A DNA stretch of 50,801 bases, taken from the IMG/VR virus record IMGVR_UViG_3300046512_000107, positions 1 to 50,801 of that record; one strand, 5' to 3'. The DNA is from a virus. Each line of letters opens with the position of its first letter. The stretch's first letter is position 1. Below the pieces are notes generated by a model that had not been told where the DNA came from, ran no database searches, and worked only from the letters and a program-made list of their open reading frames with translations. A program made the position numbers and the translations under genes. Shown here one piece after another: positions 19,986 to 46,392 of the stretch.

Positions 19986-20055
19986 TGCGCTCTCCAAACT
20001 GTTGAGCGCAGTGTCGCCAATCGTTCCTAGCTTGGCAGGACCACTTCGGTAGCCT
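19986..20055 (-). promoter_or_regulatory. Late motif copy 1 and start hairpin before the amidase gene
   Basis: The 18-bp element GGACCACTTCGGTAGCCT lies at 20038-20055 (plus-strand reading) at the end of gene D. Nearer the gene, TGCGCTC (19986-19992) and GAGCGCA (20004-20010) form a perfect inverted repeat ending directly at the amidase ATG. It is the lysis-module member of a five-copy set. Confidence 0.6.
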
Positions 20056-21127
20056 ACTGACCGCCCCAATAGTCGTCGCTGCCGTCGCCGCTCTGCTCGC
20101 ACTGGATGCGCGTCGAGAGGCCGCTGCTATTCAAGCGGTGCGTTGCGGACTTGATAGTATAGCTGCCGTCGCAGTCGGGGTCGAAGTCCATCATAGTAGC
20201 GCCAGCCCCGGCGAAGACCTCGGTGCGGCCGGGAAAGTTAGCGCCGAAGTTCTTCGAGCCGCGTGCGAGCGCGCTCTTGGTCGCCTTGGCGTTGGCTTCG
20301 GCCTCTTCCTTCGTCTTGAACAACTTGCGGCTGCGAAACTTCGGCCCCTTGCCTTCACCGCCGCCCTTAACCCACTCGCGCTCACCCTTCTTCACATTAT
20401 GAAAGGCGGCTTCAACAGAACCATAGTCGCCGCGCGTCGCGCCGGTGCATTCCCAATCGGTCATGCCGATAGGCGTAAACAGGAAAGTCGGAGCCGCGCC
20501 GCCGCTCGGAAGCTGGCCGGAGCCCGCCTTGTTGAAGATGATCGTCTCGTTGGCGAGCTTGAAGTTGCCGCCGACACGGCCTGCGAGGCGCGTCAGGAAG
20601 TTGAGATCGGACTCGCTCGACTGATCGAGATGGCCGGGCTTCAGGCTTCCGAGTTCGCCATTGACGACGGCCTTCAGTCCGTGCTTTCCGGCGATCTGTT
20701 GAACGATGTCGTCGATGCTCTTCTCATGGTAGGAACGGGACTTCGGAGCCTTGATGTCCGTCGTCATGCCTGCGGCCTTCGCCGACACGGTCATGATCTT
20801 CGGCGGACCCTTCTTCGTCCAAGAGTCGATGGCGAAGGAGCCCATGTAGTTGAGCGCCGTGGCGTAGCCGAGCCAAACCTGAAGCTTCGAGCCCTTGCCC
20901 GGCGACGGGATGTATTCCCGCAGATCGAGTTCGAGTTCGCAGCTATCGGACTGCTTGGCTTCGTTGTCCTGTACCGTGATCGACAGCAGCGGCCCCTTGC
21001 CGAAACCAAGGGCACCAGCGATCACGCGCCCACCGCCTTCGAGGGGCATGCCGAACGGGGCAGGGATCAGGTTCGCGGTGATGTCGGTCCCATCAAGGAC
21101 AAGGCGGCATGCGGGCGTCACGACCAA
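20054..21127 (-). CDS. D: Tail hub protein (P2 gpD / late control D family)
   Basis: The 357-residue protein matches P2 gpD, the tail hub that links baseplate and tail tip and is homologous to T4 gp27. Typical parts are the opening PACRLVLDGTDITANLIPAP, the beta-rich DSCELELDLRE region, ISRS-like KSRSYHEKSIDDIVQQIAGK, and SSESDLNFLTRLAGRVGGNF. It is preceded by X, U and the tape measure gene, in P2-like order. The stop codon forms part of the late motif at 20038-20055. Confidence 0.92.
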   Translation of the reverse strand: MVVTPACRLVLDGTDITANLIPAPFGMPLEGGGRVIAGALGFGKGPLLSITVQDNEAKQSDSCELELDLREYIPSPGKGSKLQVWLGYATALNYMGSFAIDSWTKKGPPKIMTVSAKAAGMTTDIKAPKSRSYHEKSIDDIVQQIAGKHGLKAVVNGELGSLKPGHLDQSSESDLNFLTRLAGRVGGNFKLANETIIFNKAGSGQLPSGGAAPTFLFTPIGMTDWECTGATRGDYGSVEAAFHNVKKGEREWVKGGGEGKGPKFRSRKLFKTKEEAEANAKATKSALARGSKNFGANFPGRTEVFAGAGATMMDFDPDCDGSYTIKSATHRLNSSGLSTRIQCEQSGDGSDDYWGGQ

Positions 21128-21324
21128 ATCCTTACGGCGACCTTCTCAGGCTCGCTGACGGTATCAGGGATAAGGATGACCATGCCCGCAGGCAAAGCCG
21201 TCCCGGCGGCTGCAAGCCCCGCGTTCGCGCGCAGGATGGCCTCCGTGGTGCCCTTGGTGCGGCCGTACTTGTTGAAGGCGATCAGATCGACGGTGTCGCC
21301 CTCCATCGTCGTGTGCTTGTCCAT
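21118..21324 (-). CDS. X: Tail protein X (LysM-like, P2 gpX)
   Basis: This 68-residue protein has the LysM-like fold signature of P2 gpX: GDTVDLIAFNKYGRTKGTTE, then ILRANAGLA and PAGMVILIPD. It is thought to bridge the tail tube end and the hub. It overlaps gene D by ten bases and abuts gene U (TAATG overlap). Size and order fit the family well. Confidence 0.9.
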   Translation of the reverse strand: MDKHTTMEGDTVDLIAFNKYGRTKGTTEAILRANAGLAAAGTALPAGMVILIPDTVSEPEKVAVRIWS

Positions 21325-21716
21325 TAGCCGTAAGCCCCAAGTTCGATGTTGAACTCAATCTTCATCGGAGCGCCGTCCGACATGAGGTATTCCTGGCTCT
21401 CACCGATCTTCTCGATGCAGTAGTTGCCGAGGTATCGGCCGAAGCCGGTGATCAGCGGGAGCGGCTGGCCCATACCGGCCTGCGCTCGCATCATGTCCAC
21501 CTGGCGCAATCCGCCGCGATAGTGCGGATAGATCACGCCATCAATCGAGATCGTGTCTTCGCCGGGGCCGATGTATTGCTTCGCAGGGGCCATGCCGATG
21601 CGTTCCTGACCGGGCCAGCGCCAAGCGGTGTCGCGCTTGAACTTCTGATAGGCCCCGGTCGAGACCGAGAAGCGATACGCGCCGAGCGCGAGAAGGACGG
21701 TGCTTTGCATGATCAA
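21324..21716 (-). CDS. U: Tail protein U (P2 gpU)
   Basis: The 130-residue protein matches the P2 gpU family by its opening STVLLALGAYRFSVSTGAYQ and the segments PGEDTISIDGVIYP and GFGRYLGNYCIEKI. gpU is a tail tip or completion factor. It overlaps the tape measure gene stop by four bases. Two start codons (MIM) are possible and the first is used here. Confidence 0.9.
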   Translation of the reverse strand: MIMQSTVLLALGAYRFSVSTGAYQKFKRDTAWRWPGQERIGMAPAKQYIGPGEDTISIDGVIYPHYRGGLRQVDMMRAQAGMGQPLPLITGFGRYLGNYCIEKIGESQEYLMSDGAPMKIEFNIELGAYG

Positions 21717-24292
21717 TCACTCAGAAGGCCGCGCTGGTCGGATTCCAGCTTGGCGAAGACCCGGTAGACGCCGCGCTCGACTTCGTCCGCGATGTCTTGC
21801 GCATTGCCACCGCCCTCGACGCGGACGCTGATCTGCGCGCTTTGCGAACGTGAGACCGACGTGTTCGAGGCCGCAGCCGCAGCGGTGCCGCTATCGGTCA
21901 GCTTGTTAAGCGCACCGTTCGTATCGATGCGACCTGACGCTCCCGGCGTGAACAGTTCGGGACCCCGCTCGCCAACAAGGTAGGACTTGCCGAACGTCAC
22001 GGGACCGCCGAGCGCGCGAGCACCGGCGGGCGCTGCACGCTTGCCGAACACGCGAGCGCCCGGCGTACCAGTCTTGATGTTTGCAGCCCCGCCGCCGCCG
22101 TCGCCCGCCAATGCGCTGCGAAGCGCGCCACCGAAGGCCACGGCCTTATCGATGGCCGCGCCGAGAACTTCGATCACGGTCTTGATCGCAGAGACGACCT
22201 TGTTAATGCCATCGGCCGCCGCGAAGCCGACTGCGCCGCCCCACTCACGCCATTGCTCCGTCGTCAGATTCATCTCGCCCGTGAGCTTCTTCAGCCAATC
22301 GAAGACGCCTCCGAGCGCCGTGCCGATGTCGCGAATCTTGTCCCCAGCCGGTCCAAGCCCGGCCATCAAGCCTTCACCGAAGCCGCCAAGGAAATTCTTG
22401 ACGCCGCTCCAATTGTTGTAAATCCAAACGCCCAGCGCGCCGAGCGCGACGGTCACGGCAGCGATTGCCGTACCGATGCCGGAGAACAGCAGCAGCGTGC
22501 CAAGGCCGCGCGCGAGCATGGGCAGCACCGCAGCGCCGCCAGCAACCGCAGCCCAAAAGCCAACCATCGCCGTGCGCGCCGCGCCAAGGGCAACCATTGC
22601 GCCAGCGACGATCCGCATCCGCGCAGCAAAGAGGGCGAGCGCCGCAGTGGCGGTGCGAATGGCAGCGGGGATGCCGAGCATGATGCCAATCAGCTTGCCG
22701 AACGGGGAGAGCAGGAGCGCGGCTGCGCCGAGCACCAGCTTCAAACCGCCCGCCGCAATGCGGCCTGCGGTGCCGATGATCATAAGGGCAGGGCCGAGCA
22801 GCGCAGCGCCGATAGCCGCTTCGGTCAGGAAGCGCAGACCGGCAGGGTTTGACTTGCCCATATTGTTGATCAGGTTCGCGATCCGCGTCAGCATGTTCGT
22901 GACGGAGTCGAGCACGCCGGAGCGTGCAATGCTGATCCACAGATTGTCCCATGCGCCCTTCAGGCGCATTGACGCACCGATCAGACCCTTCAGCATGGTC
23001 TCGGCACCGCGAGCCGACGCACCCTTCGTGCTCTTGTCGTTTACCTTGTCGAGCATTTGCTGGTACATCTCGCCGTTGAACAGCGTCGAGAGTCGCGCGC
23101 CCTGACGAACGTCAAACAGGTTAGCGATTGCGCCCAGCGAGACGTTCTTATCTTCGAGCGCGCGGATCATCGCATCGGCGTCAACACCTTCCGCCATGTT
23201 GCCAAGGAAGTTCGAGATCGTCTTGGCGACCACCTTGCCATCGCGCGGCTTCAGGTCCATGCCATCGACAAGAATCTTCGTGACCGTCTCGCGAATCGCC
23301 TTCGCATCCTTCTGCGGGTCCATGTCCTTTACGGCGCTGCTCACCTTGTCCATGAGCGGCTTCTTCACGTTGATGCCGTTGAGATTGAGCACGCCCTGAA
23401 GCGCGTTGCCGTCGAACTTCTGCCACTTGTTGACGAACTGCTCAAAGGACAGGCCGTAGCCTTCCATCGCGGCGCGTGCATTGGCGGTCGGCTTGACCAT
23501 GCGGACAAGCATCGAACGCAGCGCAACGCCCGCTTCGTTACCCTTCAAACCGTGTTGGTTCATGGTAGCGATTGCGGCCGTAACCTGCTCGATGCTCATG
23601 CCCGCCTTGGATGCAAGCGGGGCCACGTACTTGAAGCCTTCCGCGAAATCCGACACGTCGGCGAGCGAGATGTTCGCGCCCTTCGCCAGAACGTCGCCGA
23701 TACGCCCAGCAACTTCGCTGGGCTCCATAGCGTCCATCTGCTTGCGATATGCAGCGGCAATCGTCGTGATCACGTTCGCGGCCTTCGCAGGATCGACATC
23801 GCCGAAGAGCGAGAAGTCGAGCGTCGGCTTCGACATGCCGATGGCTTCATCGACGGATCGGCCAGCCTGCACGAAGCGGCGCTGCAACTCGACGGCATCC
23901 TTCGCACCGGCCAGACCAAGCCGTGCGATCTCGCGAGCGTTGTCTTCGACGCGCTTGCGCTCGGCATCCGACAGTTCGCCGTATGCCTGAATCTTGTTAA
24001 GTTCCCTCTCGAAGCCATAAACGATATCGTAACCGCTCTTGCCAACCATAGCGGTAGGGAGCGACACGGCGAGCGAAAGATCGCGGCCCTTGTTCGTCAG
24101 CTTTTCAAGACGCTTCGCAGTCGCATCGATCTGGCGCTGCGCGGCAATGAAGGGAGCGTTGATGCGCGCGCCGATGGACGCCAGCGAAGTGCCAAGGCCG
24201 TTGACCGTGGCCTTCGCTGCGTTGACTGCACCGGCGAGCGACTTATCGACCTTGCCTCCGATGTTGACGTATACGGAGAAGCCGGTCGCCAT
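21713..24292 (-). CDS. T: Tail tape measure protein
   Basis: The 859-residue protein is a tape measure protein, whose length sets tail length and which helps DNA pass the envelope. Evidence is the long helical N-terminal half, the TP901-like core (YDIVYGFERELNKIQAYGE, then AGMSIEQVTAAIATMNQHG), and several hydrophobic membrane-like segments between about 500 and 640 (AALLGPALMIIGTAGRIAAG). The C-terminal part contains the family-like FGKSYLVGERGPELFTPG. It follows the tail chaperone genes, as is standard. Confidence 0.94.
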   Translation of the reverse strand: MATGFSVYVNIGGKVDKSLAGAVNAAKATVNGLGTSLASIGARINAPFIAAQRQIDATAKRLEKLTNKGRDLSLAVSLPTAMVGKSGYDIVYGFERELNKIQAYGELSDAERKRVEDNAREIARLGLAGAKDAVELQRRFVQAGRSVDEAIGMSKPTLDFSLFGDVDPAKAANVITTIAAAYRKQMDAMEPSEVAGRIGDVLAKGANISLADVSDFAEGFKYVAPLASKAGMSIEQVTAAIATMNQHGLKGNEAGVALRSMLVRMVKPTANARAAMEGYGLSFEQFVNKWQKFDGNALQGVLNLNGINVKKPLMDKVSSAVKDMDPQKDAKAIRETVTKILVDGMDLKPRDGKVVAKTISNFLGNMAEGVDADAMIRALEDKNVSLGAIANLFDVRQGARLSTLFNGEMYQQMLDKVNDKSTKGASARGAETMLKGLIGASMRLKGAWDNLWISIARSGVLDSVTNMLTRIANLINNMGKSNPAGLRFLTEAAIGAALLGPALMIIGTAGRIAAGGLKLVLGAAALLLSPFGKLIGIMLGIPAAIRTATAALALFAARMRIVAGAMVALGAARTAMVGFWAAVAGGAAVLPMLARGLGTLLLFSGIGTAIAAVTVALGALGVWIYNNWSGVKNFLGGFGEGLMAGLGPAGDKIRDIGTALGGVFDWLKKLTGEMNLTTEQWREWGGAVGFAAADGINKVVSAIKTVIEVLGAAIDKAVAFGGALRSALAGDGGGGAANIKTGTPGARVFGKRAAPAGARALGGPVTFGKSYLVGERGPELFTPGASGRIDTNGALNKLTDSGTAAAAASNTSVSRSQSAQISVRVEGGGNAQDIADEVERGVYRVFAKLESDQRGLLSD

Positions 24293-24295
24293 CGT

Positions 24296-24418
24296 CTATC
24301 CCTTCGCCTTGTTGATCTTCGTCTGAAGCGCCACCGCGTCTTCAAACCATCCGAAGAAGTCTTCGAGGTCCATTTCCTCGATCTCCGTAAGCGAGAAGCC
24401 GCCTTGGGAGAGTCGCAT
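24296..24418 (-). CDS. GpE-family tail chaperone extension (P2 E')
   Basis: The open frame encodes MRLSQGGFSLTEIEEMDLED and continues FFGWFEDAVALQTKINKAKG, 40 residues of the GpE type (small helical protein with a conserved Trp). In P2 this segment is made mainly as a -1 frameshift extension of gene E. Here the frame is open in the -1 register from the 3' end of the preceding gene without a stop, so the fusion is likely. Independent initiation at 24418 is also possible, though no good ribosome site is visible. Confidence 0.8.
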   Translation of the reverse strand: MRLSQGGFSLTEIEEMDLEDFFGWFEDAVALQTKINKAKG

Positions 24419-24447
24419 TAAGGTCAGTACGGCCAGCCGGAGATCGG

Positions 24448-24726
24448 TTAGTCCGACTGACCCCCACGAAAAGCGTCAAGCTGTTCGCCCAGCTTCCGCG
24501 CGTCGGCTTCGTCGAGTTCTTCGATCACGGCCGGAGCCACGTCGCAGAGGTCGGCCAAAAGCAGGATGCCCTTCTCAGCTTCGCTGCCGCGCGACTTAGC
24601 GGCCTTCATGGAGTCCTTGGTCTTAGGACGGCGCATGGTGAGTTCGTTGATAACGAGACCGCCTACCGTCACCGGGTAGTCCAGTCCAATCGCGACGCTG
24701 GTGCGTCGGTCAAAGTCATTGCTCAT
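24448..24726 (-). CDS. E: Tail assembly chaperone (P2 gpE / Mu gp41-like)
   Basis: The 92-residue protein (VTVGGLVINELTMRRPKTKD, DLCDVAPAVIEELDEADARK) matches the phage tail assembly protein family around P2 gpE and Mu gp41. It lies between the tube gene and the tape measure gene and would chaperone the tape measure during tail assembly. Near its end, TTTT and GGGGG runs offer sites for -1 slippage into the GpE frame. Confidence 0.87.
   Translation of the reverse strand: MSNDFDRRTSVAIGLDYPVTVGGLVINELTMRRPKTKDSMKAAKSRGSEAEKGILLLADLCDVAPAVIEELDEADARKLGEQLDAFRGGQSD
24460..24474 (-). other. Probable programmed -1 frameshift site (E to E+E')
   Basis: On the minus strand the 3' end of gene E reads GCT TTT CGT GGG GGT CAG. 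A -1 slip at TTT or at GGG GGT enters a frame with no stop before the GpE segment at 24418, giving the fused sequence SVGLTDLRLAVLTLMRLSQG. The heptamer T-GGG-GGT is close to, but not exactly, the X-XXY-YYZ form. Confidence 0.65.
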
Positions 24727-24805
24727 GTGTAGCTCCCGCTATTCGGATTTCGATAAAGGAAGACTAGCCCGTACTCTCGCGAGCAGAGGGGCCAGTCGGA
24801 TCGCC
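24727..24805 (-). other. Gap between tube and chaperone genes with imperfect hairpin
   Basis: The short gap holds the palindrome CTCGCGAG and flanking GACTAGCCC/GGGGCCAGTC, which can form an imperfect hairpin. It may reduce downstream expression after the abundant tube protein. No T-run is present. Confidence 0.35.
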
Positions 24806-25297
24806 TTACATGCCCATCGCTGCGCGATGAGAGGCAAGCTGATCGACACCGGCGATGATACGAACGGTGTTCTCGGCATCGATCTCGGTGATCACCTGAT
24901 CGGCAATCGTGATCTTGATGTACCGGAGCGAAACATCCTGCTCGTTGGACGCCAGATCGCCAGCCTTCCAAGTACCGAGACCGCTGCGCTTGAACAGGCC
25001 AAGCATCTCAACGATCATCGGCACGGCCGCTTCGTTGTCGCGCACAAGCGCACCGCGAAGCTGAACGCGGGCCACGGTGCCGACCAAACCCATGATGGTC
25101 GGGTTGTACTCGGCAAGCGTGATCTTCGCAGTCATGAGTTCGGTGCCCAGGTCGAGTTCAACCGGGGTGTCCGAGCCGCCGCCACGGTGCTCTTCCGTCT
25201 TGAGCGCGATTTCGGGAAGTTCGGCTTCGGAGACGAGCCCGGCATAGCCGGACCCGTTCACGAAGACATTGAAGTTACGCAGGATGCGCGGGATCAT
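24806..25297 (-). CDS. FII: Tail tube protein (P2 FII)
   Basis: The 163-residue protein matches the P2-type major tail tube family, starting IPRILRNFNVFVNGSGYAGL and containing LPEIALKTEEHRGGGSDTPV and the GTWKAGD segment. It polymerises into the inner tail tube. It follows the sheath gene by 15 bases, the usual FI-FII arrangement. Confidence 0.94.
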   Translation of the reverse strand: MIPRILRNFNVFVNGSGYAGLVSEAELPEIALKTEEHRGGGSDTPVELDLGTELMTAKITLAEYNPTIMGLVGTVARVQLRGALVRDNEAAVPMIVEMLGLFKRSGLGTWKAGDLASNEQDVSLRYIKITIADQVITEIDAENTVRIIAGVDQLASHRAAMGM

Positions 25298-25312
25298 TTT
25301 CTCGTTTCCCCG

Positions 25313-26722
25313 TTATGCGAAGAGGTTGCGGATGTAGTCGGAGACGAGATGCGACCGGAAGGTCACACGCTCGGCAGGATACGGCGGCGTGAAGTCGTAG
25401 GAGAACGTGACGTGCCCCTGCGTGATGTCGGCGGGCTGGTTGAACTCAGGATCAACCCAGCAATCGCCACCGAGGATCGCGCCGCGAACCTTCAACTGAC
25501 GAAGGTACTGGCGGACCGAAGCCGTCACGTCTTCGAGGTAGTTCTTCGTGATCGAGCGATCCACGGCCCAGCGGTGTGCCTTGGCGATGGAGATGTCGAT
25601 CATGTCGGACGTGCGCGAGACGGACAGGAAGGCGAACTTCTCGTCAGCCGAGCAGGTACGATTGCCCCACAGATACCAGCCGTCGTCGCGAATGAACGTG
25701 GCGATCTGGTTCTCGTTGAGGATATTCGCGCGGCTGTTCTTGTCGCCGTAGGCGTAGTCGATGGGACGGCCGAGACCGGCGATACCGTAGACTTCCTTGT
25801 TCGACGGCGACTCCCAAAAGCCCATCTCGTTATCGACGCGCGAGATCAGACCAGCCACGCGCGCGGAGCCGCGTTCGAGGGAGTAGGTCGAAGACTTCAC
25901 GTCCCAGCCGGACACGGTCGGATCGACGATGAACACGCGACGCGTGCCATGATCGTTGCGATACGCGAACGCGGCGGCATCCGTGGTGCTCGGACCATCG
26001 GCGATGATGTGAGCCTTCATGCCATCGGCAAGCTGCTTCATCTCGCCGACAACCGGGTTGGCGGCTGCGCCAATGGCGACAGTCACGGTTGCGCCGGTGC
26101 CCGTGCCGGTGATCGTTGCCGTGACAGGCGACACGATGCCGTAGCCGAGCGACTGGAACTCAAGGCCCGTCACCTTGCCACCTTCGATGATCACGGTAGC
26201 GGTCGGAAGCACAGCGCCAGTGCCGCCGCCGGTGAAGGCAACGGTTGCTTCGGTGTAGCCGGTGCCCTGCGCAGTGACGTTGTGGCTTGCGACGCCGAGC
26301 GGGCGCTGGTGCGTGAAGCCGGGCGCGATCAGGATCATCGGCGCAACGCCGGTCTCCGTCTCGGCCGCGCGGAACGCGTGAATGCCAGTGAACGCGCCAG
26401 TCTCGGAATCGACGCCGCCGATAACGAGCGAAAGCTGCTCGTTCTCCTGCTCATCGGTTTCGACGCGAACCACAACGATAAGCGCACCGCCCTGATCGAA
26501 GATGGCGTCGATGGCCTTGGGCAGCGTGCCATCCTTGCCAATCATAGCCGCCGCCTGACGGCGGTTGACGAGCACGGGGGTATTCAGCGGGAACGCCACG
26601 TCGTTTGCGTCGGGCGCAGTACCGATCAATCCAATGACGGACGAACGGACGGTCTGGATGGGCCGAGGCCCACGGTCTACGACGACGGTCTCGACGCCGT
26701 GAAGGAAATCGGTAAGGGACAT
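25313..26722 (-). CDS. FI: Contractile tail sheath protein (P2 FI)
   Basis: The 469-residue protein is a P2-like sheath subunit: the N terminus HGVETVVVDRGPRPIQTVRS and GLIGTAPDAN, and the C-terminal core from about residue 225 (GEMKQLADGMKAHIIADGPS, DGWYLWGNRTCSADEKFAFL). About residues 149-221 form an inserted Gly/Thr-rich beta domain (GTGYTEATVAFTGGGTGAVL, ITGTGTGATVTVAIG) found in some phage surface proteins. The start is closely preceded by a 13-bp hairpin. Contraction of this sheath drives injection. Confidence 0.94.
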   Translation of the reverse strand: MSLTDFLHGVETVVVDRGPRPIQTVRSSVIGLIGTAPDANDVAFPLNTPVLVNRRQAAAMIGKDGTLPKAIDAIFDQGGALIVVVRVETDEQENEQLSLVIGGVDSETGAFTGIHAFRAAETETGVAPMILIAPGFTHQRPLGVASHNVTAQGTGYTEATVAFTGGGTGAVLPTATVIIEGGKVTGLEFQSLGYGIVSPVTATITGTGTGATVTVAIGAAANPVVGEMKQLADGMKAHIIADGPSTTDAAAFAYRNDHGTRRVFIVDPTVSGWDVKSSTYSLERGSARVAGLISRVDNEMGFWESPSNKEVYGIAGLGRPIDYAYGDKNSRANILNENQIATFIRDDGWYLWGNRTCSADEKFAFLSVSRTSDMIDISIAKAHRWAVDRSITKNYLEDVTASVRQYLRQLKVRGAILGGDCWVDPEFNQPADITQGHVTFSYDFTPPYPAERVTFRSHLVSDYIRNLFA

Positions 26723-26726
26723 TTAA

Positions 26727-26805
26727 GTTCTCTCAATCCTCAGTGTTTGGATTGAGAGAACCGTAAGTGTAGCACGGACCCTTGTCGGGACCGTTCCAGT
26801 AGCCT
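26727..26805 (-). promoter_or_regulatory. Late motif copy 2 and 13-bp leader hairpin before the sheath gene
   Basis: The 18-bp element GGACCGTTCCAGTAGCCT lies at 26788-26805. Between it and the sheath ATG, perfect 13-bp arms GTTCTCTCAATCC (26727-26739) and GGATTGAGAGAAC (26749-26761) flank a 9-base loop, ending four bases before the ATG. The hairpin would stabilise the mRNA or control access to the start. Confidence 0.7.
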
Positions 26806-27297
26806 CTAAGTGTACGTCTGCGCGAGCGAGAACAAACCAAAGAGTGCTTCGTCGCTTTGATTCATCCCAACCTTCGCGGCTTGGATGAACGGGTGATTGA
26901 TCCTGAACTCCGTCGTGTACTCCCAGCTATCGCGCACATCGCGAGGCTGCAATGCGACCCACGCTTCGACACCATCACGCAGGCCGAGTTCGTTCATGGC
27001 CAGACGGATTTGTCGGGCGGTTGCAATCATGTCGAGCGTGTTAACGGGAGGAAGTTCGATATCGAGCAGTTGCACGACGACGCCTTCAACGCGCTCGAAG
27101 CGATAGCCCTTCACCGTCGCACTCGGATGCGGAGCAGGAGCGGGAGCTACGTGGTAGACGCCGATGGCTTCGAGTTCTGCGGCGGGCCACAGTTCCGTGA
27201 TCTGCCACGCATGGACGACATTGCCGACTTCGATGCTCGCGCCGTAAGCCACTTCAGCGAAGACGTTGGTCGCGGTCTCTTGAACTACATATTGCAT
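26806..27297 (-). CDS. Hypothetical protein downstream of tail fibre, 163 aa
   Basis: I do not recognise the family. It starts MQYVVQETATNVFAEVAYGA, has a Pro-rich middle (HVAPAPAPHP), and ends with a helical segment (NHPFIQAAKVGMNQSDEALF). The ATG at 27297 lies two bases after the fibre stop, with GGGG upstream; an earlier ATG at 27309 would overlap the fibre gene. Its place after the fibre genes suggests a tail fibre assembly protein. The late motif copy 2 starts at its stop codon. Confidence 0.72.
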   Translation of the reverse strand: MQYVVQETATNVFAEVAYGASIEVGNVVHAWQITELWPAAELEAIGVYHVAPAPAPHPSATVKGYRFERVEGVVVQLLDIELPPVNTLDMIATARQIRLAMNELGLRDGVEAWVALQPRDVRDSWEYTTEFRINHPFIQAAKVGMNQSDEALFGLFSLAQTYT

Positions 27298-27299
27298 TG

Positions 27300-35015: not shown

Positions 35016-35077
35016 AGAACGCAGCGTGCCTTGACACGCCGCTCGCCGACAGACCGATCGGACCGCCTGAGAAGCCT
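35016..35077 (-). promoter_or_regulatory. Late motif copy 3 and leader hairpin before baseplate W
   Basis: GGACCGCCTGAGAAGCCT lies at 35060-35077, overlapping the stop of gene V. Toward the gene, GCAGCGTG (35021-35028) and CACGCCGC (35035-35042) form an 8-bp stem on the minus RNA with one G-U pair. It is the baseplate-module member of the five-copy set. Confidence 0.6.
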
Positions 35078-38241: not shown

Positions 38242-38274
38242 GATAGGCTTTCCGTGCTTTCAGGTTTGAGGGGG

Positions 38275-38637
38275 TTAGCCCATCGGCTTTTCGAGCCAGA
38301 TCGACTTGTCGCGGAACGTCGCGTCAATCGATCCGAGGGTATGACCGGCACCGAGGATCAGGGCGTCCTGATCGAACTCGCCAGCGATGAAGATCAACGC
38401 CTGCTTGTCGCCGTCCGTGGCATCCACGGACTCAGCGAGAATGGCATCGACCACCTGCGAACCATCGGTCGCTGCGGCGAGCGACTTGATGTACTTCTTG
38501 TCGGCGCTGATCTGGCCGAGCACAGTTGCTTCATCGAGCACCTGACCCGCCTTGATGATCACCTTGCGAGTGCGCCAGTGACCGAGAGCCCACAGCTTCG
38601 GCCGAAACTCGCCTTCATTCTTGAAACTTGCCGTCAC
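38275..38637 (-). CDS. Capsid decoration protein (lambda gpD)
   Basis: The 120-residue protein fits the lambda head decoration family: KVIIKAGQVLDEATVLGQIS near the N terminus, and ALIFIAGEFDQDALILG later. It stabilises the expanded capsid by capping three-fold sites. It lies between the protease/scaffold and capsid genes. Confidence 0.93.
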   Translation of the reverse strand: MTASFKNEGEFRPKLWALGHWRTRKVIIKAGQVLDEATVLGQISADKKYIKSLAAATDGSQVVDAILAESVDATDGDKQALIFIAGEFDQDALILGAGHTLGSIDATFRDKSIWLEKPMG

Positions 38638-38649
38638 TTGGACTGCTCC

Positions 38650-39057
38650 TTAGTTGCCGGTCGCGAGCTTGAACGCGCCGAGGATGGAATTAACTGCCGC
38701 GTCTTCCGCCGAAACCGCCGACTGATCCTTGCTGGGAGCCGGACCAACTTCAGCGTTCGCTTCGGTGTCCGTCTCGATAGCTTCGGCGCGCTCGGTACGC
38801 TTCGTCTTTTCCGCTGCGACAATCATCGCCGAGAACGCGTGCGCCGAAGAGCCCTTTTCGATAGCCTCAGAAGCGGCCTTCTCGTAGCCGGGCAGGGTGA
38901 GTGCCATGATATCGGTGACGCGCTTGCGCTCTTCAGTGCGAGCGGCAGCAACGGCGGTCGCATCGACGGTCTCCGTCGAAGCTTCGGTCACAACCACCGG
39001 AGCGGTTGCAGCGGCAGCAGCAGCGGCTTCCGCTGCAAGTTCGGCTTCAGTCTTCAT
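38650..39057 (-). CDS. Scaffold protein from internal start (Nu3-like)
   Basis: In lambda-type phages the scaffold is made from an internal start inside the protease gene. Here ATG 39057 begins MKTEAELAAEAAAAAAATAP and runs in frame to the same stop, giving a 135-residue Ala/Glu-rich helical protein. A GGAG lies nine bases upstream. This is inferred from the family arrangement and is not independently shown. Confidence 0.65.
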   Translation of the reverse strand: MKTEAELAAEAAAAAAATAPVVVTEASTETVDATAVAAARTEERKRVTDIMALTLPGYEKAASEAIEKGSSAHAFSAMIVAAEKTKRTERAEAIETDTEANAEVGPAPSKDQSAVSAEDAAVNSILGAFKLATGN

Positions 39058-39960
39058 AGTTTCAGTCTCCGTTTGGCCTTCTGCGGCCGTGCTGGTGGGG
39101 TTGAATCCGTAGGTGCTCTTCAGGTCTTCACCGTTCGACAACTTCGCGAGCACCTGTTCAAAGGTTGCGATGCCATCGGCCATGCCGACGTTGACTGCGG
39201 CCTGACCGATCAGGGTGTCGCCCTGTCCGAAGTGTTCGAGAACGTGATCGACGGACTTGCCGCGATACTTCGCGACGGTCTCGACGAAGACGGAGGCCAT
39301 CGCATCAACGCGCGCTTGCACGCGATCACGGCCCTCCTGCGTTTCGAGGTTGACGCGCTTGAACGGCGATTGCGACGACACGAACTCATAGGTCTTGACG
39401 CCACGGGCCGCGTCCTGCGCAGACGTGTCACGATAGCCAGCCACGACGCCGAGCGAGCCCATGTTGGAGGTCGGTCCGATGTAGACCTCGTCGCTCGCAA
39501 CGCCCAGCCACAGGGCTGCGGAGGCGATCTGATCGCCTGCGTAGGAGACGATGCGCTTGCGCCCGCGAATGTCGTGAATCGCACTGGCGAGTTCGGCAAC
39601 GCCCGCAGCCTCGCCGCCGGGCGAGTGGATGTTGAGCAGGATCGCGCGCACGGACGCGTTGTCCATCGCGGCCTGAAGGTCGCGGCGAACCTGTTCGTAT
39701 GCAGTCGCGCCGCAGAACGTGGTCATGAGGTTCGCACGCTTGAACAGCGGACCGGCCACGTCGATGATCGCAACGCCGCCACGGAAGGTCGCCCGCTCGG
39801 ACCGTTCGAGATCGTTGGCGCGATACGCCTCAAGCATCGCGGGCTTGATCTCATGCTCGCGCGCAGCGACTTCCATCAAGGCGCGCAGGGCGGGTTCGTC
39901 CATCGCCCAAACGGCGGCCATCGCCGCATCGAAGACGAGCGGATTGCGGTGAATGGTCAT
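38650..39960 (-). CDS. S49-family head maturation protease (lambda gpC)
   Basis: The 436-residue protein has a ClpP/SppA-like S49 peptidase domain (about 40-260): AVRAILLNIHSPGGEAAG-like strand SVRAILLNIHSPGGEAAGVA, then GPTSNMGSLGVVAGY with the probable catalytic Ser, and AKYRGKSVDHVLEHF. The C-terminal 135 residues form an Ala/Glu-rich helical scaffold that could also start internally at 39057. It processes the prohead together with the scaffold. Confidence 0.92.
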   Translation of the reverse strand: MTIHRNPLVFDAAMAAVWAMDEPALRALMEVAAREHEIKPAMLEAYRANDLERSERATFRGGVAIIDVAGPLFKRANLMTTFCGATAYEQVRRDLQAAMDNASVRAILLNIHSPGGEAAGVAELASAIHDIRGRKRIVSYAGDQIASAALWLGVASDEVYIGPTSNMGSLGVVAGYRDTSAQDAARGVKTYEFVSSQSPFKRVNLETQEGRDRVQARVDAMASVFVETVAKYRGKSVDHVLEHFGQGDTLIGQAAVNVGMADGIATFEQVLAKLSNGEDLKSTYGFNPTSTAAEGQTETETMKTEAELAAEAAAAAAATAPVVVTEASTETVDATAVAAARTEERKRVTDIMALTLPGYEKAASEAIEKGSSAHAFSAMIVAAEKTKRTERAEAIETDTEANAEVGPAPSKDQSAVSAEDAAVNSILGAFKLATGN

Positions 39961-41582
39961 GCTGCTTCCTTCTTCGGCTTCGGCACCGGACGGCCGTCTT
40001 CGGCGTCGGGATCGGTCTCGGCGTCGTCTTGCGGCAAGGGCACCGGCGCTGCGCCGCTACCTGCGAGGATTTCGGGCTCAAGAGCACCGGCTGCACGCGC
40101 CTTGTGTTCGATGATCCGCTGCTTCGTGGTCTGCTCGAAGTCGTCGCCACCGCGCTCGATGATTACCGCCTCAATCGTTCGGGCACCGAGGTTGACGGCT
40201 TCGGTCTCGGCCTTCCATTCCTTCAGCGGATCGAGCGAGATGCGCGCCGGACCAATCCACTGCGAGCCGGACCATGCGGCACGGCGAACCGGGTCTTCAT
40301 GGAAGCCGGGCGCAACGATCAGGCCGGTGTTGATGGCGTCGGACAGGAACCACTCGTAAACCGGCTGGCAGAAGTTACGGCACAGCCAGGTACGACGATC
40401 CTTGAAGAACTGCGCGGCCATTTCGAGCGCCGCGCGCGATGCACTGTAGCTCGCCGTGAAGTGCATCATGAGCAGTTCAAACGGGATCGCCAAAGCGACG
40501 CCGATCTGCCGCACAACGGCTTGGAAGAACGGATCGAAGTTGGACGTGTTGGCGGGCTGCGCGGTCTGAATCTCTTCGTCCGTGCCAATGTCAACGATGG
40601 TGCCGGAGCCCATCGTGACATCGTTCGCTCCCATGCCGGGGTACGCCCCCATCGGCGCTGCGCTGGCAATGCCGTCGTCGCCCGCCGTCTTCAGGAAGAC
40701 GGTGAAGAACGACGCCACGACAGCCTTCATCAACTCGGCTTCGGTGTAGCGGTCGAGTTGCTTCAGCAGTTCGATGACCGGGGCGAGTTGCGGCACGCCA
40801 CGGTTCTGACCGGGACGTTGACGGTCGAAGATATGGAGCACCATCTGCTCGCCGCTCTTCGCGCCGAACGCCGGGACTTCCTTGAAGCCGTACAACTGCG
40901 CGCCCAGCGAGTCGCCGGGGTGCTCGTTGAGAATGTAATAGGACACGGGAGCGCCGTCTTCGTCGATACGGACGCCATCGCGAACAAGGTAGTTGCCCTG
41001 TTCTTGGTTCGGCGTAGCGACGCGGTCGGCCTCGACGATGTCGATGGCGAGCGGCACAATGTTACGCTTGTGCTTGGGCGAGCGGCGCAGCGTGAACACG
41101 TCGCCGGACTCGAACGCCGAGTTGAAGACGAGGCCCTGAAGTTCGTAGAAGTTCTGCGTGGCCGTGATGTCGGCGCACTTGCTTTCGGCCCACAAGGCGA
41201 ACAGCGTCTCGGTGTTGCGCTCCCACGCTTCGGCCGCATCGTCGCTCAAGCCGAGCAGCTTGGCATTCAACTTGGCGCGCATGCGCAGGCCGGAGCCGAC
41301 GACGTTGATCTTCGAGGTCTGACGAGCGCCAGCCGCGATGGGATTGTTGCGAACAAGATCGCGCGAGCGAGCGCGCAAGGTCGTTAGATCGCCGAGACTG
41401 TCCGAGTCGGCCGATCCGGCGTTGGTGCGCCACGACTTCAGCGCCGCACGGCCGGAACGCGCACCGGCGTACTGGCCCACAGAATTGAAGGCGAGGCGAG
41501 CATGGTAACGCTTCTGCGCGAACGTCGGTGCGACGCTCGCAAGCATGCGATCCATAAAGTTCGGGGCGATGGGCTTGATCAC
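39957..41582 (-). CDS. B: Portal protein (lambda gpB)
   Basis: The 541-residue protein fits lambda gpB: SLGDLTTLRARSRDLVRNNP, IAAGARQTSKINVVGSGLRM, AFESGDVFTLRR, and HIFDRQRPGQNRGVPQLAPV, followed by FTASYSASRAALEMAAQFFK. It forms the dodecameric ring for DNA entry and tail attachment. It overlaps the protease gene by four bases. The C terminus is Pro/Asp-rich. Confidence 0.95.
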   Translation of the reverse strand: MIKPIAPNFMDRMLASVAPTFAQKRYHARLAFNSVGQYAGARSGRAALKSWRTNAGSADSDSLGDLTTLRARSRDLVRNNPIAAGARQTSKINVVGSGLRMRAKLNAKLLGLSDDAAEAWERNTETLFALWAESKCADITATQNFYELQGLVFNSAFESGDVFTLRRSPKHKRNIVPLAIDIVEADRVATPNQEQGNYLVRDGVRIDEDGAPVSYYILNEHPGDSLGAQLYGFKEVPAFGAKSGEQMVLHIFDRQRPGQNRGVPQLAPVIELLKQLDRYTEAELMKAVVASFFTVFLKTAGDDGIASAAPMGAYPGMGANDVTMGSGTIVDIGTDEEIQTAQPANTSNFDPFFQAVVRQIGVALAIPFELLMMHFTASYSASRAALEMAAQFFKDRRTWLCRNFCQPVYEWFLSDAINTGLIVAPGFHEDPVRRAAWSGSQWIGPARISLDPLKEWKAETEAVNLGARTIEAVIIERGGDDFEQTTKQRIIEHKARAAGALEPEILAGSGAAPVPLPQDDAETDPDAEDGRPVPKPKKEAA

Positions 41583-41785
41583 AGCGGAATCACCCGCTGA
41601 ATGCGGACGCCACCGCGCTGTTGCCGTTCAAGCTGTTGCTTCAGCTTCGTGGCGCGAGCGTCGAGGGTCTTCAGGTCCGCGCGCCAGAGTTCACGATCCT
41701 TGATCGTGTACCGCTGACCATTGGACTCGACTACGCCAATGGCCTTCAGGGTCTCTTCAAGCTGTTCTTCGATGCTCTTTGCCAT
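41579..41785 (-). CDS. Head-tail joining protein W (lambda gpW)
   Basis: The 68-residue protein resembles lambda gpW in size and pattern (LEETLKAIGVVESNGQRYTI, then DRELWRADLKTLDARATKLK and a basic tail). gpW stabilises packaged DNA and prepares the head for tail joining. Its start codon lies inside a 9-bp inverted repeat (41783-41806), and late motif copy 4 is just upstream. Confidence 0.88.
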   Translation of the reverse strand: MAKSIEEQLEETLKAIGVVESNGQRYTIKDRELWRADLKTLDARATKLKQQLERQQRGGVRIQRVIPL

Positions 41786-41837
41786 GTCCCGAAGCTACGG
41801 GACATGAGCGCATCGAAAGAGACTGATCGGATAGCCT
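41783..41837 (-). promoter_or_regulatory. Late motif copy 4 and palindrome over the gpW start
   Basis: AGACTGATCGGATAGCCT at 41820-41837 is the fourth copy of the 18-bp late element. Closer to gpW, CATGTCCCG (41783-41791) and CGGGACATG (41798-41806) are perfect 9-bp arms with a 6-base loop, and the gpW ATG lies within one arm. The repeat could act as an RNA hairpin or as an operator for the adjacent helix-turn-helix gene. Confidence 0.65.
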
Positions 41838-41844
41838 GAGAGGG

Positions 41845-42102
41845 CTACTTACGGTCGAAGATCACCACGTCATCGGGGGGAACAGCGCCGCCGAGATACG
41901 TGCGGATCAGCATGACGACGGTGCCGGACGCGGCGGTCTTGCCGCGCTCCATGTTATAGACGTGATCGTCGCCGTGATCCTCCGACAAGCCAAGGGCTCG
42001 CGCCATTTCCTTAGCCGTCAGCGGTCCACCGCCCGGCTTCCACATAGCGCCCAACTTCGCGCGGGCTTCCTTGATCTCGTCATTCGTCATCTTGTGAGCC
42101 AT
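41845..42102 (-). CDS. XRE-like helix-turn-helix protein within the packaging module
   Basis: The 85-residue protein (NDEIKEARAKLGAMWKPGGG, LTAKEMARALGLSEDHG, VYNMERGKTAASG) has an XRE/MqsA-like helix-turn-helix. It lies between terminase and gpW, an unusual place for a regulator. The ATG at 42102 is the best start; an upstream frame overlaps the terminase end. It may control the late operon through the palindrome just downstream, but this is inference. Confidence 0.82.
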   Translation of the reverse strand: MAHKMTNDEIKEARAKLGAMWKPGGGPLTAKEMARALGLSEDHGDDHVYNMERGKTAASGTVVMLIRTYLGGAVPPDDVVIFDRK

Positions 42103-42115
42103 AGCGCGGTTCCGT

Positions 42116-44062
42116 CTATCTTTCAACGCCACGGGAGCGGATGCGGCGACGGCCCGTCGCGGGGGCGGCGGACGGCTCTTCCTGTGACGAGGGATTGCTG
42201 CTCACGTTGACCGGCGCGCGGTTCATAAGGTTTGCAGCAGCGGCACGGAGGGCCATGATCCGGCGTTCCATGTTGATCCCCAGCGAGAGGCGCGCGGCGA
42301 TGTTATAGACGCGCAGATCGAGCGGTTCGTTACGGGCTTGAACCTTGTGCCACTCCTTGACAGTGAAGCCCTTCTTATCGACCTTCAGGATGGCCTTTTC
42401 AGCCGTGAGGCCGTCGAAGAACTTCTTGTCGTAGTGCTCCTGCAACGGATAATGGCAGTAGCCGGGGCCGGGTTCCTTCAGTTCGAGGCGCTTGTAGTGC
42501 ATATCCTTGCCCTGATCGACGCCGAGAATGAAGATCGTGACGTTCTTGCCCTTGTGCTGCGTGCCCTTGGCAGGCCAGATCGGTCGGTTCGCGCCGGAGC
42601 GTCCGAAAATGCCATACACTCTTCGGACAAGGCGCGTGCGCACGAAATTGTAGACATGCTGCGTGAAGTGACCGCCCGCGTCGATACAGGACGCCTCCAC
42701 GCGCATAACGATGCCGGACGGATGATTGAACGTCCGCAGCAACGCTTCATCGACCACTTCCCAAAAGCCCGGCGTATTCGGCACGCCATAATGGACCTTG
42801 TAGTCGAGCGACCACGACTCGTCGTCGAGCCCCCAGCCAACCCATTCGATTTCGGCGCGGTCATCCTGAATGTCAACGGCCGCAGTGATCGCGCCGACGC
42901 CAGCCGGAAGCACGACAGCGGCGTCATACTCTTCACGACGCTCATAGATCGAGTCAGGGTTGGCGCGCTCGCCACGCTCTTCCCACGTCTCTGCAAGGCG
43001 CGTGTTGACCCACGTCTTCAATCGCTCGGGATGCTTTCGCACATTAACGAAGTCGCGCGCCATCTCGCCGAGCGCGCGCCAGGGCGAAGCGATACGGTTG
43101 AGATGGAAGCCTGCATGGCCCTTAACTTCGGGCTTCGTCGCGATCCATCGGCCGCGCGAGATTGCCTTCAGGCGCTCGGCTTCGGACCAACCGTGATCGC
43201 ACGCTTCGCCGGTGTCGGGATCGGTGTATTCGCAATGATACTTGGCGGCCATCGGATTGTCGGCCGGCCACCGTACTTGCTTCCACTTCAAATGTTGCCA
43301 ATGACCGCACTTCGAGCACGCGACGAAGTAGCGGCGCTGATCGCTTTCCTCGAACGACGACTCAATTCGCGACGCGCCCTTGATGGTCGGCGTCGATACG
43401 AGAGCGATCTTGCGATTCCAGAACGTCGTGGTTCGCTCGATAGCGAGCGAGACCGGGTCGCCTTCCTTGCCTGCGCTCGCCTCATAGCGATCCACTTCGT
43501 CGCAGAGCAGAATACGGATAGGACGCGACGCGAGCGATGCAGGCGAGTTCGCGCCCGCCATCGTGATATGACCGCCGGGATACTTCTTGTGAAGGATCGT
43601 GTCTTCGGAGTCGCGCGCGTTGTGCCCGATCTTCTCGGCGAGTTCCTTCGTGTCGCGGATCATCGGCGCGAGACGATCCTTCGAGTATGCTTCGGCCATC
43701 TGCAACGTCGGTTGCAGGATGAGCATCGGGCCGGGGTCGAGATGCGCGTGGAAGCCGACGACGTTATTGATGACTTCGGTCTTCACGGTCTGCGCAGCGA
43801 CCATGCACGTTACGATCTCGATCTCGGGATCGGCGAACGCGTCCATGATGCCGCGCGACGGCTCAACGCGCGCAGTAGACCACTTGCCGGGTTCGCTGGA
43901 CGCTTCAGGAGACAGATAGCGGTATTCGTCCGCCCACTCCGAAACAGTCAGCTTCGGAGGCGGGCTAAACGATTGAGAGATGATCTCGCGAACCTGCGCG
44001 CGAAGCCGCGCCTCATAGCGCGGATCGGCAGTGTATTCGCCGACGACCGCGACGCTATGCAT
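42116..44062 (-). CDS. A: Terminase large subunit (lambda gpA)
   Basis: The 648-residue protein is a lambda gpA-type terminase: KLTVSEWADEYRYLSPEASS, the ATPase segment CMVAAQTVKTEV, IRILLCDEVDRYEASAGKEG as Walker B region, and cysteine pair CSKCGHWQHLKWKQV. The C-terminal half carries the nuclease domain (AAVDIQDDRAEIEWVGWGLD). It cuts and pumps phage DNA into the head. gpA-type enzymes use cos sites, so a cos site is expected in this genome. Confidence 0.95.
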   Translation of the reverse strand: MHSVAVVGEYTADPRYEARLRAQVREIISQSFSPPPKLTVSEWADEYRYLSPEASSEPGKWSTARVEPSRGIMDAFADPEIEIVTCMVAAQTVKTEVINNVVGFHAHLDPGPMLILQPTLQMAEAYSKDRLAPMIRDTKELAEKIGHNARDSEDTILHKKYPGGHITMAGANSPASLASRPIRILLCDEVDRYEASAGKEGDPVSLAIERTTTFWNRKIALVSTPTIKGASRIESSFEESDQRRYFVACSKCGHWQHLKWKQVRWPADNPMAAKYHCEYTDPDTGEACDHGWSEAERLKAISRGRWIATKPEVKGHAGFHLNRIASPWRALGEMARDFVNVRKHPERLKTWVNTRLAETWEERGERANPDSIYERREEYDAAVVLPAGVGAITAAVDIQDDRAEIEWVGWGLDDESWSLDYKVHYGVPNTPGFWEVVDEALLRTFNHPSGIVMRVEASCIDAGGHFTQHVYNFVRTRLVRRVYGIFGRSGANRPIWPAKGTQHKGKNVTIFILGVDQGKDMHYKRLELKEPGPGYCHYPLQEHYDKKFFDGLTAEKAILKVDKKGFTVKEWHKVQARNEPLDLRVYNIAARLSLGINMERRIMALRAAAANLMNRAPVNVSSNPSSQEEPSAAPATGRRRIRSRGVER

Positions 44063-44246
44063 CGGGCCTCCGCTTATAGGCGAAGCAACGCATGCGCGCG
44101 TCAGTCTGCGATGCGTAGTGGATGGACTCCACCTGATTGCAGACGCCGTTCCAATCGCCTTCCTGCTTCCAGCCGGTGCATGCTTCGCAGCTATTAGGGG
44201 GCCACTTCATCCATGACGGCTTGAATGGCGTACTATCATTCGACAT
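44055..44246 (-). CDS. Small cysteine-containing protein between terminase subunits, 63 aa
   Basis: The protein starts MSNDSTPFKPSWMKWPPNSC and has four cysteines (CEAC, GVC, RCF), suggesting metal binding or disulfides. It overlaps the small subunit gene (11 bases) and the large subunit gene (8 bases), supporting translation. I do not recognise the family. It may be a packaging accessory protein. Confidence 0.68.
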   Translation of the reverse strand: MSNDSTPFKPSWMKWPPNSCEACTGWKQEGDWNGVCNQVESIHYASQTDARMRCFAYKRRPDA

Positions 44247-44814
44247 CGTCTTCAGTTTCTTCTTCGGTAGGTTCAATGAGGGTCAGTTCTTCAGCGCCCT
44301 CAATGGGCTCGTCCGCGAGCGCCTTGATCTCGTTGAGTGCTTCGAGGATCAGGGTCTCGATAGTGTTGACGATCCTCTTCGTGGCTTCAGGCTCGCCGAC
44401 TTCGAGATGCACGGTCGGGCGGACCTTGGACGGAATGCCGAGCAGTCGAGCGCGAGCGTTGGCGATCTCATTCGAGATGACCTTCAGGATTTGCGCGACA
44501 GGCCGCAGCAACTCCATGTTCTTCGCGAGGTCGAGTTCGGCGGTCTTCGCGCGAGCAACTTCGTAGCGCAGCTTGGCTTGGTCGATAGTGATAACCTCGC
44601 CATCTTCCTTGATGGTTGCGGCGACCTTCGCCTTCACTTCGCCGCGCTCGCGCGCGAGCAGCCAACGCAGGACGTGCTCGGTGTCGAACTCGAATGACAC
44701 GCCGCGCGTGCCATGCTTCGCAACCGGGCAACCGGCTTCAACCCATGCGGAGACGGTCGGCAGCGAGTAGCCGAACGTCTCCGCGAGTTCTTGCCGGTTT
44801 ACGATCTTGCCCAT
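44236..44814 (-). CDS. Nu1: Terminase small subunit (lambda Nu1-like)
   Basis: The 192-residue protein opens with a winged helix-turn-helix (VNRQELAETFGYSLPTVSAW, then VEAGCPVAKHGTRG), as in lambda Nu1. A helical oligomerisation segment (YEVARAKTAELDLAKNMELL) and an acidic C terminus (EEETEDDVE) follow. It binds the packaging site and recruits the large subunit. It overlaps the NUDIX gene by one base. Confidence 0.9.
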   Translation of the reverse strand: MGKIVNRQELAETFGYSLPTVSAWVEAGCPVAKHGTRGVSFEFDTEHVLRWLLARERGEVKAKVAATIKEDGEVITIDQAKLRYEVARAKTAELDLAKNMELLRPVAQILKVISNEIANARARLLGIPSKVRPTVHLEVGEPEATKRIVNTIETLILEALNEIKALADEPIEGAEELTLIEPTEEETEDDVE

Positions 44815-45233
44815 TAGGCGGCTTCCAACATGGTCACGGAGAAGCCGCTACCGTCGAGGGCGAGAGGGATCAGCCAACGCAGGTTCGGCACGCACTGACT
44901 GAAGACGTATTCCGACATAGCGGCGGCACAGACGATCTCTTCGCCGACATCGTTGCAGTCGTCGAAGCGGGGGAGGTCGGCGACAGTCGCCTTGAAGAAG
45001 TGGACGATGGAGTTTTGGCCCTTGATCGAAACGAAATGCTGCCAGTCAGCATGATCGTTGCCGGTCTCTTCCTTCCACTCGCGGCGCATAGCGAACAGCG
45101 GCGTCTCTTCGTTCGGCTCGATCTTCCCGCCGATGCCGTTGAGCTTGCCAGCCTGCCAGCGCGGCTTCAGCTTGCGAACCAAGGCGACGTTACCGAACTC
45201 GTCGAACATGAACCCAGCGACATAAGCCTGCAT
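44814..45233 (-). CDS. NUDIX hydrolase
   Basis: The 139-residue protein has a NUDIX box, GGKIEPNEETPLFAMRREWK followed by EETG, with one extra residue between the first Gly and the REWxEE part compared with the standard spacing. NUDIX enzymes hydrolyse nucleoside diphosphate derivatives such as oxidised dNTPs or ADP-ribose. The ATG at 45233 overlaps the kinase stop; a GTG directly before it is an alternative. With the kinase it forms a nucleotide-related pair at the head of the late operon. Confidence 0.88.
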   Translation of the reverse strand: MQAYVAGFMFDEFGNVALVRKLKPRWQAGKLNGIGGKIEPNEETPLFAMRREWKEETGNDHADWQHFVSIKGQNSIVHFFKATVADLPRFDDCNDVGEEIVCAAAMSEYVFSQCVPNLRWLIPLALDGSGFSVTMLEAA

Positions 45234-45817
45234 CACGCCACCGCCATGCGGGAGTGACGGTCCACCATGAACTCGACAAGGCTATCGATCTGGCGGTTCG
45301 TGTCGGCAATCTGACCTTCGCGATTGATGATCTGCCAAGTAGCGACAAGCTTTGCCTGCTCCCGCTCGGTGCGATGCTCCAGATTGGGATTGGAGCCAGG
45401 TCGAAGGATCTCCGCGATAATGCCGCCCATGTTCACGACGGCGTCGCCTTCGTTCGGATGACGGCAATCCTCGAACACGACGCGGTTCGGCTGCTCCACC
45501 CAAAGCTTGTCGGTCTCGGTGCCGATCCAGAAGTTGGGGGACATCCAGTCGCGGCCCCAATGACCGCCGAGCCCTTCCATTGCGTGCCGGGGGGACTTGC
45601 CGCCCAGCCACACGGTCGGACTCTCCTTCAGGTCGCCGTCGATCATGCGCTCGATGGTGTCGGCGTCGCAGCCACGATAGCGCAGGTAGGCGCGCAGCAT
45701 GTCCTTCAGGGCTCCCGCCCAGCGGCCACGAACAAACCCGTGACGCTCGATCAGGCGTTCCGCAAACACGGTCGTCTTGCCGGAACCGATGAGGCCCTTG
45801 ATGCCGATAACGATCAT
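45233..45817 (-). CDS. Deoxynucleoside monophosphate kinase-like protein
   Basis: The 194-residue protein has Walker A GLIGSGKTT (8-16), then KSPRHAMEGLGGHWGRDWMS and VVFEDCRHPNEGDAV, which match phage dNMP kinases of the T4 gp1 type. It would phosphorylate dNMPs to dNDPs for phage DNA synthesis, perhaps with relaxed specificity. It is the first gene of the late operon, preceded by a 120-bp leader containing late motif copy 5. Confidence 0.88.
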   Translation of the reverse strand: MIVIGIKGLIGSGKTTVFAERLIERHGFVRGRWAGALKDMLRAYLRYRGCDADTIERMIDGDLKESPTVWLGGKSPRHAMEGLGGHWGRDWMSPNFWIGTETDKLWVEQPNRVVFEDCRHPNEGDAVVNMGGIIAEILRPGSNPNLEHRTEREQAKLVATWQIINREGQIADTNRQIDSLVEFMVDRHSRMAVA

Positions 45818-46392
45818 TCCAAATGCTCCGTTGAGAGCATCCGGTGTAAAGCCGTATAGTTTTCTTTCGAGTCTGTTTCAGTATCCCTACCAAAACCGGC
45901 GTTAGGCCGGAAAACATAGGGTTTTCGTGGGATCGCTAGGGGCTACCGAAATAGCCTTTTGGAACAACAAGTCACTTCAAATTTTCCATATCTAGACAGG
46001 GGTCGGGGTCGCGCGTCACCCGCAGGGGCAGGGGCGTCGAAAGTACCTTTTTTCTATAGAATGGCCGATTTGTAGAAAGTAATGCTTTGTCAAGCGGGAT
46101 CGGAGAGAATTTCTCTCTTTTCTTGAACGATTAGGCTCGTTTCGGCCTAATCCTGCGGTTGTGAAACGCTCCTGTTTTCGGCGCTTTTAGTGCGCTCGGC
46201 GACAGTCAACCGGCTGAAACTATTGGGCTTTTTCCCGTTTGCGTTTCGATCTCTCTGATTTTCACAGTCTTTATAGCGTTCGCAAAACACTTTTGTGGTT
46301 CGCGCGCCAACGCATTGATATCGCAAGGTTTTAGCGCCTTGCGGTGCATCCGGGCCGTCATTTGCTGCGCATTCCGGTCTGAAGCCGGTTTC
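45818..46392. other. Intergenic control region with likely late promoter and possible cos
   Basis: No gene is supported in this 575-bp stretch between divergent operons. It contains late motif copy 5 (45940-45957), a short GC hairpin CCGGC-GCCGG near 45895-45909, the G-rich tract around 45998-46040 (GGGGTCGGGGTCGCGCGTCA), and a GAGAGAA-T-TTCTCTC palindrome at 46103-46117. A minus-strand TTGACA occurs at 46093-46088 but without a convincing -10. Because the terminase is lambda-type and lies just downstream, cos is likely here; I cannot place it. Confidence 0.5.
45940..45957 (-). promoter_or_regulatory. Late motif copy 5 upstream of the dNMP kinase gene
   Basis: GGGCTACCGAAATAGCCT aligns without gaps to the other four copies (TAGCCT retained, GGACC changed to GGGCT). 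It lies 123 bases upstream of the first late gene. Here the element is also an inverted repeat, GGCTA-TAGCC. Confidence 0.5.

Follow-up and report, generated by a model that had tools for sequence, protein, structure and literature searches.

Phage P2 has four late promoters, PP, PO, PV and PF, which use the activator Ogr and drive the operons for packaging, head, baseplate and sheath (PMC3931495). Phage Mu has the late promoters lys, I, P and mom, with the activator C (PMC4461284). In phage T4, the start of genes e, soc, 49 and I-TevI is hidden by a hairpin in long transcripts, and a late promoter lies inside the hairpin; for gene e, late promoters just upstream give RNA that lacks the 5' part of the hairpin (PMC3014915). 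For the late promoters of Bradyrhizobium prophages, no paper was found in the literature searched.

The DNA analyzed here (the window) is a whole IMG/VR virus record of 50.8 kb, which is classed as linear and is therefore probably a fragment. On its minus strand lies the late region of a phage with a contractile tail, encoding a deoxynucleotide kinase, terminase, a gpW-like adaptor, baseplate proteins, the sheath, a tail protein and an amidase. IMG/VR is rich in close relatives (sheath identity mostly 84-88%), four of which are contained in named Bradyrhizobium genomes; a sheath relative of some kind was present in 12 of 266 Bradyrhizobium genomes.

The locus shares with P2 a set of late promoters with one activator-type site, placed at the packaging, head, baseplate and sheath modules (PMC3931495), and with Mu the apparent use of one activator and a separate lysis promoter (PMC4461284). 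As in Mu, the putative activator site lies by the -35 region of promoters with poor -10 and -35 sequences, a likeness drawn here from sequence geometry alone. In contrast, the P2 site is TGT-N12-ACA whereas the consensus here is GGGCTACCGAAACGGTCTCG, the site and the module borders differ from those of Mu, and neither an Ogr-family nor a Mor/C-family protein was found here. By the tests made here, the promoter set belongs to neither the P2 type nor the Mu type. In plan, the arrangement is like that of P2, Mu and T4; the site itself is new.

A shared site ahead of five late modules

A preliminary description of the window had reported five copies of an 18-bp element in the gaps before late modules. 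All five strings are present at the coordinates it gave. However, its consensus did not discriminate by itself: with up to two mismatches it has 12 matches in the window, of which five are those described and most of the other seven lie in coding sequence, and with up to three mismatches it has 54 matches against 27.8 expected. We rejected this 18-mer for its excess of coding matches, which at two mismatches are comparable to the described copies, and the element itself was rescued by the relatives. A matrix was built from the relatives only (IMG/VR records and Bradyrhizobium prophages), using the five homologous gaps, and then applied to the window. All five gaps of the relatives hold a common element, whose transcript-strand consensus is approximately GGGATACCGAAACGGTCTCG, and the matrix places one site in each corresponding gap of the window:

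26786..26805, minus strand: activator-type site of the sheath promoter; the top match of the window, score 24.5; 17/17 relatives
45868..45887, minus strand: activator-type site of the kinase/packaging promoter; score 23.5; 16/17 relatives; the true orthologous copy
41818..41837, minus strand: activator-type site of the gpW/head promoter; score 21.0; 17/18 relatives
20036..20055, minus strand: activator-type site of the lysis (amidase) promoter; score 17.7; 15/15 relatives
35049..35068, minus strand: activator-type site of the baseplate gp25 promoter; 16/17 relatives; weak when its own module is left out (rank 34)
45940..45959, plus strand: match GGGCTACCGAAATAGCCTTT, first described as the fifth copy; score 20.6, barely short of the null maximum of 20.7

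The registers first assigned to the lysis, sheath and gpW copies are exact in this matrix. The gp25 copy, previously set at 35060-35077, was 9 bp out of register, and the supposed kinase copy at 45940 is a separate plus-strand match that faces away from the kinase gene.

In a leave-one-module-out test, the matrix still picked the same site in 80/80 sequences, and the window copies ranked 1 (sheath), 3 (kinase), 4 (gpW), 8 (lysis) and 34 (gp25) among 101,564 positions. Among 31 late-gene starts, counted with a matrix that includes the five module sites, none beyond the five module starts has a site consistent in the relatives. Further copies, absent from the preliminary description, lie at 38848-38867, 16302-16321 and 24787-24806. 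A further match before terL (44141-44160) was rejected, being confined to the window and having no suitably spaced -10. The five module copies stand 52-83 nt ahead of the next start codon, usually directly past the stop of the preceding gene, and the element is partly palindromic, most clearly in relatives as GAGATCG-GAA-CGATCTC. In distant relatives, we did not find the element ahead of these genes. In four host genomes, every copy with at most two mismatches lies on the prophage contig, and the activator is therefore probably the phage's own.

Promoter geometry and candidate regulators

A -10 hexamer of the form nAnnnT starts exactly at element position 41 in 96% of sequences. A42 and T46, which correspond to the two key bases of a -10 box, occur together at this offset (weighted by module), while every other offset tested reached at most 17%. 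Apart from these bases the hexamers are mostly poor (GACCGT, CACGGT, AATCAT and TAGGGT, for example), and no -35 box was found at these promoters. In the window, the boxes are:

20010..20015, minus strand: lysis -10 box GACACT at the fixed spacing; predicted start site 20003, ATG 19985
26760..26765, minus strand: sheath -10 box TACGGT at the fixed spacing; predicted start site 26753, ATG 26722
35023..35028, minus strand: gp25 -10 box CACGCT; ATG 35015 at position 54, no Shine-Dalgarno (SD) sequence; predicted leaderless
41792..41797, minus strand: gpW -10 box TAGCTT; ATG 41785 at position 53, no SD; predicted leaderless

The kinase -10 of the window is off consensus, ACACCG against GACCGT in most relatives. 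Pairs of element and -10 box scoring at least 17 occur on the late strand 4-7 times per record, versus 0-0.03 expected in Markov sequences. The fixed -10 spacing, together with the missing -35 box, indicates that these are late promoters and that their activator-type site is centred at about -42. The element spans approximately -52 to -33 of the predicted start, as would suit an activator that works at the -35 region.

The same arrangement recurs outside the sites used for the matrix. Full relatives have a sixth promoter before a VRR-nuclease-like gene, which is followed by a minor tail gene; in 10/10 distinct sequences of this promoter, the -10 has the predicted distance and the start codon falls on position 53. 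Likewise, the prophages G097 and G026, both outside the matrix, carry sites before the same genes, except that the gp25 and VRR nuclease sites of G097 fall below the threshold used. Together with the fixed spacing and the restriction to 5 of 31 starts, these results bear out the original suggestion of a late-promoter or activator site, and they give good support to a late region divided into units under separate control. The DNA itself shows the site, its confinement to module starts and its fixed distance to the -10 box. We infer from them that a protein binds the site and activates transcription, and that transcripts begin at the bases given above. It is highly probable that a phage-encoded activator binds the element at a set of late promoters.

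It was also proposed that the element is an RNA processing signal. A processing or termination signal between modules would suit its position in the gaps, mostly directly past stop codons, but the element sits upstream of the predicted start site at a fixed distance from the -10 box, the folds within the 20-mer differ among copies, four of the five gaps have no T-tract terminator, and no Rfam match was obtained; we regard this explanation as very improbable. RNA structure does seem to play a part, although through another element immediately downstream of the site. As for terminators in the gaps, totals were not above those of shuffled sequences, and the only coding-strand candidate was a terminator-like hairpin (CCGGCCTAACGCCGG-TTTT, 45896-45910, minus strand) just upstream of the kinase promoter, which could insulate the first late module.

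Alternatively, a repressor, such as the CI-like protein at 7194-7913, might use the element as its operator and keep the late promoters silent in the lysogen. The element overlaps the place of a would-be -35 box and is partly palindromic, as an operator could be. However, promoters with poor -10 boxes and no -35 box would need help rather than repression, and the repressor/early intergenic region holds no copy scoring at least 11, either in the window or in five full relatives. A repressor operator is therefore improbable, and an activator site remains our preferred reading.

Which protein would bind it? No match to the Mor/C family (PF08765) was obtained in 10 records, and none to the Ogr/Delta zinc-finger family (PF04606) above the cut-off in the same number of records, some possibly fragments (best E 0.3). 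Two early proteins are conserved throughout:

9848..10348, plus strand: HTH-like early protein; 11/11 records, 73-77% identity to that of the window
3029..3274, minus strand: small early protein that resembles GcrA's C-terminal part; 11/11 records; a relative lies at L119:8515-8769

The HTH-like protein, already among the activators proposed in the preliminary description, is the best candidate. It matches no family, and 12 Bradyrhizobium genomes that lack this sheath also encode relatives of it. GcrA is a sigma-70 cofactor, and the GcrA-like protein is a possible sigma-70-contacting accessory; the GcrA match was found in the G001 homologue only (E 0.013, below the curated cut-off), and the stand-alone gene adjoins an MT-A70 methyltransferase gene in the early operon. 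AlphaFold models of both proteins were too poor for fold searches (pLDDT 47 for the HTH-like and 42 for the GcrA-like protein). We also considered an OmpR/PhoB-type winged-helix (Trans_reg_C) gene that lies between the repressor and the early operon in most relatives and is confined to the six Bradyrhizobium genomes with this prophage. It is internally deleted in the window, where only its ends remain (6861-7193, minus strand), and missing in G002, so we rejected it as the activator; it may be Cro-like instead.

Predicted leaderless mRNAs and hairpins over module starts

The predicted start sites fall on the start codons of some modules. The gpW ATG is at position 53, the predicted first codon of the mRNA, in 17/17 sequences, and the gp25 ATG is at position 54 in 15/16, while SD cores are present in 0/15 and 1/17 sequences, respectively. 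In contrast, lysis and kinase always have an SD, as does sheath in 10/16 sequences, and the distances to the start codon vary in these three. A leaderless mRNA has its start codon at the 5' end and no SD. Since the start codons of gpW, gp25 and the VRR nuclease lie at the predicted +1, we would expect these three genes to be made from leaderless mRNA, as the spacing indicates. The likeness to leaderless mRNAs is the start codon at a predicted 5' end without an SD; the difference is that they are predicted here for genes that open late structural modules, with exact spacing and in many relatives.

Inverted repeats are predicted to cover the translation start at several modules:

19980..20016, minus strand: lysis hairpin CGACACTGCGCTC / GAGCGCAATGTCG; covers SD and start codon in read-through RNA only, as judged by covariation and folding energies
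26728..26760, minus strand: sheath hairpin TTCTCTCAATCC / GGATTGAGAGAA; covers the SD region in read-through RNA
45823..45840, minus strand: kinase hairpin ATGCTC / GAGCAT; covers the kinase SD
41783..41806, minus strand: gpW inverted repeat CATGTCCCG / CGGGACATG; the loop is the -10 box and the ATG lies in the 3' arm

Of 24 starts compared by the z-score of folding between -38 and +9, those with promoters take ranks 1, 2, 3, 5 and 7. Read-through RNA of the window folds with -18.8 (lysis), -21.6 (sheath) and -15.3 kcal/mol (kinase), compared with -1.4, -3.9 and -2.5 kcal/mol for transcripts from position 53; if that position is the start, RNA begun at the module's own promoter would be without the hairpin's 5' arm. 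The lysis arms vary among relatives with pairing kept (GTTCTC/GAGAAC, GCTCTC/GAGAGC, GCGCTC/GAGCGC), and the sheath hairpin has three compensated pairs. Swapping 5' arms among relatives lowers pairing; the observed pairing was reached in 13 (lysis), 33 (sheath) and 127-252 (kinase) of 10,000 permutations, statistics that ignore kinship. A simple accessibility measure was low only for lysis and gp25 among the five module starts. We consider it about as likely as not that, in read-through RNA, the hairpins mask the SD or start codon, whereas own-promoter RNA can be translated; such gating is best supported for endolysin and sheath.

The inverted repeats might instead be DNA operators of a second regulator. 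The loop holds the -10 both at gpW and at the VRR nuclease, so that the arms frame the promoter, as would be expected of operators. Yet the arm sequences vary among relatives while pairing is kept, and the arms shift relative to the -10, with the 3' arm nevertheless extending to the SD or the start codon in every case. DNA operators are thus an unlikely, though less remote, explanation than a repressor at the shared site, and we retain RNA hairpins as the working reading. These would resemble the T4 case in that a hairpin would cover the SD or AUG and a start at the gene's own promoter would remove the 5' arm, the best case here being also an endolysin gene. Unlike in T4, they are predicted, from sequence, at the first genes of several late modules and with an activator-type promoter.

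In our model, a phage activator would bind at about -52 to -33, ahead of a weak -10 box without a -35 box, and each promoter would open one late module: kinase/packaging, gpW-portal-head, baseplate, sheath-tail or lysis. Relatives would add a VRR-nuclease/minor-tail module, and probably also a promoter within the protease ORF for the capsid genes. In read-through RNA, a hairpin would hide the SD or start codon of the module's first gene; RNA from the own promoter would have no 5' arm, making translation possible. A stricter version, which we put forward only tentatively, is that each late module is translated solely from RNA of its own activator-dependent promoter, the SD being otherwise hidden or the mRNA leaderless, and that the activator represents an undescribed family. 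If true, promoter choice would set both transcription and translation of every late module. The analysis provides an exact promoter map for one phage group, with start sites predicted to the base and leaderless mRNAs predicted for structural genes, and suggests that the trick of a few T4 genes may pervade a whole late region.

Further sites and neighbouring genes

Beyond the module starts, three more sites were found in the window:

38848..38867, minus strand: site within the protease/scaffold ORF and upstream of the decoration and capsid genes; -10 GATGAT at 38822-38827
16302..16321, minus strand: weaker probable site past the lysis genes; -10 TACAGT at 16277-16282, one base nearer
24787..24806, minus strand: weak site before the small tail gene 24448-24726; -10 TAGTCT; window and G010 only

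The protease-ORF site is in the same place in all relatives examined and is a probable further promoter for the capsid genes. Its codons are conserved at 0.94 versus 0.80 (16th of 366 windows of the comparison), for which coding constraint is a possible other cause; in G097, the -10 bases are kept although an ATG codon changed. The site past the lysis genes has matching sites in G001, G005, G009 and G008.

Also beyond the lysis genes, the G005 record holds at 57829 (minus strand, in L125) an inverted near-copy of the sheath promoter, accompanied by the start of a sheath-like reading frame. Elsewhere in the window, the plus strand encodes a DnaN-like (sliding clamp) protein, recognized by eye, between the repressor and the HTH-like gene (8629-9855), a cytidine/dCMP-deaminase-like protein (10397-11023) and an ArdA antirestriction protein (47256-47819).
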